Source: Allonocardiopsis opalescens (GTDB lineage: Bacteria; Actinomycetota; Actinomycetes; Streptosporangiales; Streptosporangiaceae). Taken from it: a DNA stretch of 64,000 nucleotides. Below the pieces are notes generated by a model that was given only the letters and a program-made list of their open reading frames with translations, was not told the origin of the DNA and searched no databases. The translations under genes were made by a program, and so were the position numbers. Location of the stretch: assembly GCF_003002095.1 (NCBI RefSeq), contig NZ_PVZC01000001.1, forward strand, positions 496,001 through 560,000, given 5' to 3'. This document shows positions 55,004 through 57,132 of the stretch, in pieces (the stretch's first letter is position 1; every line of letters starts with the position of its first letter).

Positions 55004-55193
55004 GAGAGGCCACACGCGGATCGCCGCAGGTCGCTCGGGTTCCGTCTCCGGACTGCTTAGGTATGCCTGATCCGCAGGTGAAGAGGTGTCGACGCAGTCG
55101 GTGTGATCTGCGTCATGGCGGATTGCGGCTATCGGGTCGGTCTGGTTACGGAAATCGGTTGAGTGATCACGGTGGGTAGTGAATGATTCGAGC

Positions 55194-56708
55194 ATGAGTT
55201 CGGACACCCGCGGTGCCCGGGAGACAGGCACCCCGACCGTTCCCGACGACCTCGCCGCCCAGGCCCGACGGCTGCGCGACGAGGGCATGAGCCGCCCGGC
55301 CATCCAGCGCGCCCTCGGCCTCACCGCCTGGCAGCTCACCAAGCTCTTCGACCGCGAGAAACCCATCGAGTCCCTGCGCACCCAGGCCAAGGACGCCGCC
55401 AGGGAGACCGCACGCGCACTCCGGCTCCAGGGCGCCTCCTACAACGAGATCCGCGAGCACGTCCAGGTGTCGAAGTCGACCCTGTCGCTGTGGCTGCGGG
55501 ACCTGCCCACCGAAGCGCTCGACCCGGACAAGGTCGCCCCGCGTCGCGCCAGGGCGGCCGAGCGGCAGCAGGCCGGGCGACGCGAGACCTTCCGGAAGAA
55601 GCGTGTACCGCTCGACCAGGAGATCGAGGACGCCGCCGCCGAGATCGGACCGCTGAGCGACCGGGAGATCCTGATCGCCGGAGCGATCGCCTACTGGTGC
55701 GAGGGGGCGAAGGCGCGGCCGAAGAACTCGGTCACGGTTCATTTCAGCAATAACGACCCTGGCCTGATCGCGCTTTTCCTGCGGTTCCTGAGCGTGTGTG
55801 ATATATCTGCGGATCGCATCGGATTCCGGTTGCAGATCCACAAGGACGCCCAACTCGAACGCGCGTACTCGTTCTGGAGCGACGCCGTCGGTGTTTCGCA
55901 TGCCGACTTTCTGCCGACCACGTTCAAGACCGGAAATCCCGAGACCCGGCGCAAGAATGTTGGCACCGGCTACACCGGATGCATGTCCGTGCGCGTTCTG
56001 CGCAGTAGCGAGCTCTATCGGAAGATCGAGGGCTCGGCCAAAGGAGTCATGGGGGCGATCCCAGATGAATGGCGACATGAGTCTGACCTGCTCTATCCCG
56101 ACCGTGCCGACGTGAAGGGGTGGTGGTACGGTCGGGCCGCCCGGCTGTTGGCGCGGCGCAGGCAGCGGCTTGCCGCAGCCCGGTCGATCGGTGATCTGAA
56201 TGAGCGCGAGATCCGCATCGCCGGTGCGATCGCCTATTGGTGTGAGGGGGCGAAGAGCAAGCCATGGCGACGGAGCCACCAGATGGTATTCGCAAACAGC
56301 GATCCCGATATGATCATCTTCTTCCTGCGTTTCTTGGAGATGTGCGGAATCGACAGGGATCAGATAGTCGTCTGTATCTCGATCCACGAGAGCGCGGACG
56401 TTCCAGCGGCGGAGAAGTTCTGGGCGGAGATCACCGGCTTGCCGCGCTCGTCCTTCCAGAAGGCCGCGATCAAGCGGCATGCGCCCCGGACCGATTGGAG
56501 TGGAGGCGGACCCGGTTACCACGGATGCCTGTTCCTCCGCGTACGCCGAGGAGCCGCCCTGTACCGGCGGATCGAGGGGTGGGCGCGTGGAGTCATGCAG
56601 GCGTCGAGGGGCGCATCAGCACCGGTCGGCGGCCTTGTGCCAGTGGACGAGACTGTAGAACCTGTTGGCTCTGAGTCCCGTGCGCCTACTACTATGGACG
56701 CGCAGTAG
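55194..56708 (+). CDS. Two-HTH protein with duplicated LAGLIDADG-like domain
   Basis: A 504-residue protein of a poorly described actinobacterial family. The N-terminus has two helix-turn-helix segments (about 24-51, and 72-101 with VSKSTLSLWLRDL). Then two homologous blocks follow: 154-286 and 335-468. Each begins with an identical IAGAIAYWCEGAK (161-173 and 342-354), a LAGLIDADG-like helix with an acidic residue, followed by N-x-DP, FLRFL, an H-rich strand (LQIHKDA; ISIHESAD), FW, a basic segment, GY-x-GC and LYR-IEG. Relatives I recall have one block. Downstream of about 55740 codon use becomes AT-richer than neighbours, suggesting transfer. The last 25 residues look non-conserved and overlie the tRNA promoter. 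ATG 55194 or GTG 55179 may start it. DNA binding or cleavage is inferred. Confidence 0.8.
   Translation: MSSDTRGARETGTPTVPDDLAAQARRLRDEGMSRPAIQRALGLTAWQLTKLFDREKPIESLRTQAKDAARETARALRLQGASYNEIREHVQVSKSTLSLWLRDLPTEALDPDKVAPRRARAAERQQAGRRETFRKKRVPLDQEIEDAAAEIGPLSDREILIAGAIAYWCEGAKARPKNSVTVHFSNNDPGLIALFLRFLSVCDISADRIGFRLQIHKDAQLERAYSFWSDAVGVSHADFLPTTFKTGNPETRRKNVGTGYTGCMSVRVLRSSELYRKIEGSAKGVMGAIPDEWRHESDLLYPDRADVKGWWYGRAARLLARRRQRLAAARSIGDLNEREIRIAGAIAYWCEGAKSKPWRRSHQMVFANSDPDMIIFFLRFLEMCGIDRDQIVVCISIHESADVPAAEKFWAEITGLPRSSFQKAAIKRHAPRTDWSGGGPGYHGCLFLRVRRGAALYRRIEGWARGVMQASRGASAPVGGLVPVDETVEPVGSESRAPTTMDAQ
56665..56695 (+). promoter_or_regulatory. Candidate tRNA-Gln promoter inside the upstream gene
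   Basis: TTGGCT (56665-56670) and TACTAT (56690-56695) are 19 bp apart; a TACTAC at 56687-56692 gives 16 bp. Transcription would start about 45 nt before the tRNA. Confidence 0.4.
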
Positions 56709-56747: not shown

Positions 56748-56823
56748 TCCGGGGTAGTGTAACAGGCAGCACGCCGTCCTTTGAAGTCGGTTATTAGTCA
56801 GGGTTCGAATCCCTGCCCCGGAG
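56748..56823 (+). tRNA. tRNA-Gln (anticodon TTG) with enlarged variable loop
   Basis: A cloverleaf can be drawn: acceptor TCCGGGG/CCCCGGA (56748-56754 with 56116-equivalent end 56122, i.e. 56816-56822), D arm GTGT/GCAC, anticodon stem CCGTC/GTCGG with one T-T mismatch, loop CTTTGAA with anticodon TTG at 56781-56783, T arm CAGGG-TTCGAAT-CCCTG, discriminator G. CCA is not encoded. The variable region is eight bases (TTATTAGT) instead of five; it looks like TTAGT with a duplicated TTA. A tRNA-Gln upstream of glmU is the usual actinobacterial order. Confidence 0.8.
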
Positions 56824-57132
56824 CTAGGAAATATAGGAAATAGCTGCTTGCTGCGGATCGAGCGAATGCGCGCCCTCAAGCAGCTTTTTCATGTGCCCGG
56901 CTTCGGTAACACCCGCTGTCCCGCCCCCAGGTTGCCGGGCGGTATCCTGCCGGTGTCGGGCGTGTGGGCCGGTGCGCGAAGCGGCTGGTCAGCGTGGTGA
57001 TCCGCGTGGCGCGGGGCCCGACCGGGGCTATGTGAGCGATCGACGGGTACGGTGCCAGCGCGAGGCCGCCGCCGTCGGCTGGCGGCCCTGCGCAGCCTTC
57101 CACCAAACGATATGTGCGAGGAGTCTCCGCCC
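56824..57132 (+). other. Gap between tRNA-Gln and glmU
   Basis: The 309 bp contain the tRNA terminator and presumably the glmU promoter; no gene is supported. GAGGAG lies just before the glmU GTG. Confidence 0.5.
56842..56889 (+). terminator. Intrinsic terminator of tRNA-Gln
   Basis: AGCTGCTTG (56842-56850) pairs with 56877-56885 and is followed by TTTT, with a 26-nt loop between. The T tract is one of only two obvious ones in the window. Confidence 0.7.

Follow-up and report, generated by a model that had tools for sequence, protein, structure and literature searches.

A gene of Allonocardiopsis opalescens probably encodes a free-standing LAGLIDADG homing endonuclease that resides at tRNA-Gln(UUG) and moves as a unit with a tRNA of its own that resists its cleavage. 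The gene lies in the window analysed here, a stretch of 64,000 nt (GCF_003002095.1, contig NZ_PVZC01000001.1, positions 496,001-560,000 of the forward strand). tRNA genes are commonly regarded as slow and vertically inherited, and as passive landing sites for integrases. In the present case, the whole of an essential, single-copy tRNA appears to undergo replacement inside a single genus, along with a nuclease domain linked to it. This pattern of wholesale replacement points to a testable mechanism for tRNA turnover, and would constitute a bacterial parallel to the WHO elements of yeasts.

The window protein and its tRNA neighbour

The open reading frame (55194..56708; all features given here are on the + strand) starts with the ATG at 55194, an in-frame GTG also being present at 55179, and codes for a protein of 504 aa with the order HTH-HTH-LAGLIDADG-LAGLIDADG. 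The two helix-turn-helix (HTH) segments, residues 18-53 (55245..55352) and 64-100 (55383..55493), appear as helices in the structure model and have weak Pfam matches to HTH_7/HTH_38/HTH_23; HTH_7 weakly matches the first segment, and for the second HTH_23 is the usual Pfam match in one-domain relatives. There follow two LAGLIDADG-like domains, assigned from the model and from structural matches: residues 156-285 (55659..56048, with the E170 codon at 55701-55703) and residues 337-473 (56202..56612, with the E351 codon at 56244-56246). Taken at ~139 aa each, the two copies are 45.7% identical, and both begin with the same 13-residue string, IAGAIAYWCEGAK. GC content at third codon positions is as high in the HTH part as in glmU (0.92 for both), and lower in domain 1 (0.79), domain 2 (0.78) and the tail (0.55). 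An initial annotation, made from the nucleotides alone, had described the two HTH segments, the duplicated domain with its shared start, one acidic residue per motif helix and AT-richer codons in the 3' two-thirds of the gene; each of these is borne out, the acidic residue being Glu (E170 and E351), not Asp, in both copies.

The LAGLIDADG domain has no sequence match in Pfam, NCBIfam, PHROGs or PDB sequences, where the HTHs alone are matched, and the fold call is made from VIA-align comparisons together with a matching catalytic register. The full-length model (mc42cd2506955, pLDDT 82) matches I-DmoI with Z 11.1 over both repeats (rmsd 3.4, 171/183 residues, about 16% identity); the next matches are WhiA (Z 9.9/8.8), I-Tsp061I (9.3) and PI-SceI (8.1), and unrelated folds reach Z about 5.6 at most. 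For the model of L005, a one-domain relative (pLDDT 86), the best match is the second I-DmoI repeat, at a middling Z of 6.6. Foldseek alone gave nothing below 1e-3 for either model, the list for the full window protein being headed by I-DmoI entries that likewise lie above this value.

I-DmoI is an archaeal, intron-encoded, monomeric LAGLIDADG endonuclease with catalytic residues D21 and E117. Assuming an ungapped motif helix, as the aligned ranges imply, E170 of the window protein aligns with D21, and, on the same assumption, E160 and K163 of the one-domain model align with E117 and K120. Invariant in 91/91 relatives are E160, K163, K165, N177, D179, H207, W219, K236 and R244, the acidic, presumably metal-binding residue that ends the motif helix being Glu throughout. 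The likeness to I-DmoI lies in its being the best structural match over both repeats, with acidic residues at equivalent positions; unlike that intron-encoded enzyme, the window protein is free-standing, carries two N-terminal HTHs and has Glu at both sites. We read the window protein as a predicted LAGLIDADG pseudo-dimer, and the conserved residues, taken with the modelled fold, support an active nuclease, presumably an endonuclease. The initial annotation had proposed comparing a predicted structure with I-DmoI and WhiA, and had named the lack of a LAGLIDADG fold as speaking against its reading; the fold is found in the model, and the idea of a homing-type endonuclease is supported by the predicted pseudo-dimer together with the fixed placement at tRNA-Gln(UUG) and the non-vertical pattern described below.

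WhiA (DUF199) is a conserved developmental regulator, and the structural match to it (Z 9.9) raises the possibility that the window protein is a domesticated, non-cutting DNA-binding regulator of the adjacent tRNA-Gln(UUG)/glmU, co-evolving with the tRNA promoter. WhiA likewise combines a LAGLIDADG fold with an HTH and is found in actinomycetes. In WhiA, however, an N-terminal LAGLIDADG domain is followed by a C-terminal HTH, whereas here the HTHs come first, the catalytic Glu and Lys are invariant and the family is patchily distributed; we consider a regulator unlikely, and return to it where further evidence bears on it.

The tRNA-Gln(UUG) of the window (anticodon TTG; 56748..56824, identified by ARAGORN), putatively both resistant partner and target locus, begins 39 bp past the stop codon of the LAGLIDADG gene and has a variable region of ~8 nt and a U-U mismatch in the anticodon stem, which agrees with the earlier description of a tRNA-Gln close downstream with an altered variable loop. 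A tRNA census found no second tRNA-Gln(TTG) in the window genome. In the genomes checked tRNA-Gln(UUG) is single-copy, and a pattern scan of gene-bearing relatives turned up, as tRNA-Gln(TTG), the copy adjoining the gene.

In Streptomyces, the promoter-like GGCATAGT lies within the 3' end of the gene and is probably the tRNA promoter, since the rare Ile codon ATA is kept there in 37/46 copies; a promoter in this position would suit a regulator of the tRNA as well. By analogy, the possible promoter at 56665..56695 of the window (TTGGCT, 19 nt, TACTAT), read by eye in the 3' end of the gene, may serve the window tRNA; a scan for consensus promoters detected none there. According to a review on phage T4, endonuclease genes are more readily retained when promoters are embedded in them (PMC2988022).

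A fixed site with patchy occupancy

The initial annotation had proposed a survey of the family for one- and two-domain forms and for tRNA adjacency. Relatives are mostly one-domain proteins of about 290 aa, and the two-domain forms differ in their order: HTH-HTH-D1-D2 in the window, HTH-D1-D2 in L002 and HTH-D1-HTH-HTH-D2 in L013/L015/L020 (L numbers denote loci). A single old duplication behind all two-domain forms was considered and rejected: with low support, the window domains do not group with the D1/D2 of the Actinomadura type. In 120/120 distinct actinomycete loci, tRNA-Gln(UUG) stands at the 3' end of the gene, an adjacency far beyond chance. The random placement, universal two-domain architecture and vertical descent that the initial annotation had set against its own reading are thus not what is seen, one-domain forms being in the majority and descent not simply vertical.

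The gene is not intron- or intein-encoded, the tRNA being uninterrupted and the gene a separate open reading frame adjoining it. The order of the slot, desaturase(-), tRNA(+), glmU(+), prs, rplY, is kept in genomes without the gene, which is therefore an insertion there. The gene-tRNA block occurs in four layouts: the gene lies either upstream of the tRNA in the same direction or downstream and convergent with it, and each of these two arrangements also occurs inverted as a block. Two gene-less loci (L137 and L159) have tRNA-Gln(TTG) in inverted orientation with respect to glmU, an arrangement shared with some of the loci that carry the gene and perhaps left behind by its loss. Locus L241 (G540:C15:184800-190100) is a palindrome of the form tRNA-gene-gene-tRNA, in which two tRNA-Gln(TTG) surround two overlapping inverted gene copies; this may reflect either a genuine inverted duplication or an error of assembly.

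Occupancy of the site is patchy. The gene is present in 15/60 genomes of the relatives set and in 104/199 Streptomyces, and roughly one in four of the Streptomyces copies has been truncated, split or interrupted by a stop. Of 20 gene-less Streptomyces examined, nearly all retain the last ~90 bp of the gene, including GGCATAGT; we therefore regard these loci mostly as losses and reject them as pre-invasion empty sites. Outside Streptomyces, 26/27 gene-less loci are clean sites with no gene remnant. In some gene-less genomes the tRNA sequence is identical to that of gene-bearing ones; this counts against the homing reading, though it would fit secondary loss. Presence and absence at a fixed site, with decay and loss, are characteristic of free-standing homing elements, and such patchiness and frequent decay count against a regulator. 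No phage, viral or plasmid relatives of the protein were found, and mobility via known phages or plasmids is unsupported.

More distant relatives occur in Patescibacteria, where a profile search found them in 105 of the 380 genomes from the phylum to which the Microgenomates MAG L025 belongs. A tRNA gene stands at the 3' end in 58 of the 72 distinct loci, for 16 isoacceptors. With few exceptions it shares the strand of the gene, and in many cases it overlaps the stop codon. Given ~45 tRNAs per ~1 Mb genome, we estimate chance adjacency at 1% or less, so that the tie to tRNA genes belongs to the family as a whole and not to a single locus. That 16 different tRNAs adjoin these relatives also argues against a regulator of tRNA-Gln(UUG)/glmU. 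The gene often ends inside the tRNA (L201:1342-2085, L283, L202), tRNA bases ~8-10 appearing to give the stop codon. In L302, L318, L319 and L342, relatives lie within a tRNA cluster of the order Thr-Tyr-Thr-gene-Trp, which suggests a recurrent target.

Joint exchange of tRNA and LAGLIDADG half in Streptomyces

Across 65 gene-bearing Streptomyces loci, six main types of tRNA-Gln(TTG) can be told apart, their median identity being 67%. Within the same genomes, mean edit distance is 5.8 for tRNA-Gln(UUG) against 2.4 for tRNA-Gln(CUG), and, in 26 genomes, the segment from anticodon to T arm is 2.4x as variable in tRNA-Gln(TTG) as in tRNA-Gln(CTG), and the T arm about 7x. Pairs of close species that differ in tRNA type reveal where this variation is confined. 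Between L250 and L247, glmU is 98.5% identical, upstream DNA and flanks are mostly 92-100% identical and the HTH half 95-98%, whereas the LAGLIDADG half and the tRNA are only 58-83% identical, with identity back to 100% right past the tRNA. A like pattern, with varying left ends, is seen in L255/L244, L251/L243, L248/L224 and L268/L233. The LAGLIDADG half and the tRNA have been exchanged together, in a lopsided segment that ends within ~30 bp of the tRNA 3' end but on the other side takes in some 500-850 bp of the gene. An exchanged segment of equal extent would fit the AT-richness seen toward the 3' end of the window gene.

The association is also evident across loci. In partial Mantel tests on 63 loci, tRNA distance is correlated with that of the LAGLIDADG domain (r 0.17, p 0.0005) but not significantly with that of the HTHs (-0.04) or glmU (0.05). 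The tRNA type is common to a locus and its nearest relative in 52% of cases when relatives are chosen by the LAGLIDADG domain, 32% by the HTHs and 27% by glmU, with 17% expected by chance (paired tests: LAGLIDADG versus HTH, p 0.007; versus glmU, p 0.004). The tie between tRNA and LAGLIDADG domain is clear but moderate, correlations being modest (r about 0.2), and the HTH half has a history partly separate from the rest. Such joint swapping with the tRNA body would not obviously be expected of a regulator.

Part of this linkage could be plain physical proximity: the LAGLIDADG half is nearest the tRNA, and proximity alone therefore yields some correlation. Taken further, recombination might be concentrated at this locus, its tRNA alleles diversifying and the gene being carried along with no functional tie, and the weakness of the correlations is in line with this. 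However, the exchanged segment is lopsided, stopping within ~30 bp of the tRNA 3' end on one side and extending ~500-850 bp into the gene on the other, and adjacency is universal in the 120 actinomycete loci and recurs at other tRNAs in Patescibacteria, so passive linkage seems to us quite unlikely. It might also be argued, from the fact that the sole tRNA-Gln(UUG) is the divergent partner and that the nuclease half is linked to it, that the protein is a toxin that cleaves or inhibits ordinary tRNA-Gln(UUG), with the adjacent divergent tRNA as an immune replacement. The predicted fold and the HTHs are, however, typical of DNA-binding homing enzymes, and the tRNA types are shared with gene-less genomes; we regard this explanation as very improbable.

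A homing model and its known parallels

Under the homing endonuclease model that we prefer, the N-terminal HTHs and a dimer of LAGLIDADG domains, formed between two identical subunits in one-domain members and as a pseudo-dimer within the single chain of the window protein, would recognise and cut foreign tRNA-Gln(UUG) alleles, and donor-templated repair would copy in the nuclease gene as one unit with the tRNA promoter and the divergent tRNA of the donor. This donor tRNA would substitute for the essential tRNA and would resist the enzyme; being both replacement and resistant, it would therefore keep nuclease and tRNA linked. Repeated invasion, decay and loss would then lead to fast turnover of tRNA-Gln(UUG). 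What we infer in this model is DNA cleavage, its exact target, that the resident tRNA resists it and that homing is driven by repair; the model explains the fixed site, patchiness, decay, tRNA diversity, block structure and joint exchange, the last of these agreeing, if indirectly, with inheritance biased by double-strand break repair. With somewhat less assurance, we favour the broader view that these genes form an undescribed, widespread family of tRNA-gene parasites, which would cut essential tRNAs and install resistant ones (tRNA-Gln(UUG) in actinomycetes, at least 16 isoacceptors in Patescibacteria) and drive turnover of otherwise conserved tRNAs. A published description of the family was not found in the literature searched, itself incomplete. 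What would be new here is a homing element that swaps an entire essential tRNA, and the family would provide many naturally matched pairs of enzyme and target for studies of LAGLIDADG specificity.

Among known systems, SegB of phage T4 is likewise a free-standing homing endonuclease gene in a tRNA region, with intronless homing and co-conversion of neighbouring tRNAs (PMC2988022, PMC13096335). In contrast to SegB, which is a phage-borne GIY-YIG enzyme with a target between tRNA genes, the present family is chromosomal, has a predicted LAGLIDADG fold with no GIY-YIG domain and, in actinomycetes, is tied to one isoacceptor. The closer parallel in mode of action is with the WHO elements of Torulaspora/Lachancea yeasts, intein-zinc finger fusions with demonstrated cleavage, through which the 3' end of FBA1 gives way to a resistant version (PMC7282813). 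As in those elements, a LAGLIDADG-type homing nuclease gene lies beside an essential gene, divergent alleles stand between near-identical flanks, as though a resistant version of the target were swapped in at each homing event, and pseudogene remains are common (PMC7282813). A nuclease linked to an exchanged divergent allele of its target is found here too, with the tRNA as the presumed target. The WHO elements are, however, fungal and exchange only the 3' end of a protein gene, whereas the bacterial element would exchange a whole tRNA body and its promoter; its architecture is HTH-HTH-LAGLIDADG and not an intein-zinc finger fusion, so it appears to work like WHO but is not a member.

Leftover target fragments such as those at WHO loci were also considered, a T-arm-like motif just 3' of the tRNA being ~12-fold enriched. 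We rejected this reading because in Streptomyces the motif is one arm of a terminator-like hairpin: most Streptomyces loci (L203-L282) have a strong GGGTCCTGACC...GGTCAGGACCC hairpin 3' of tRNA-Gln(TTG), probably a terminator. Only L158 (5410-5521), a locus of inverted layout, retains an exact 19-nt match to the 3' end of the tRNA; this copy, of the T-arm/acceptor part, lies 16 bp past the intact tRNA and is possibly a leftover of a replaced tRNA.
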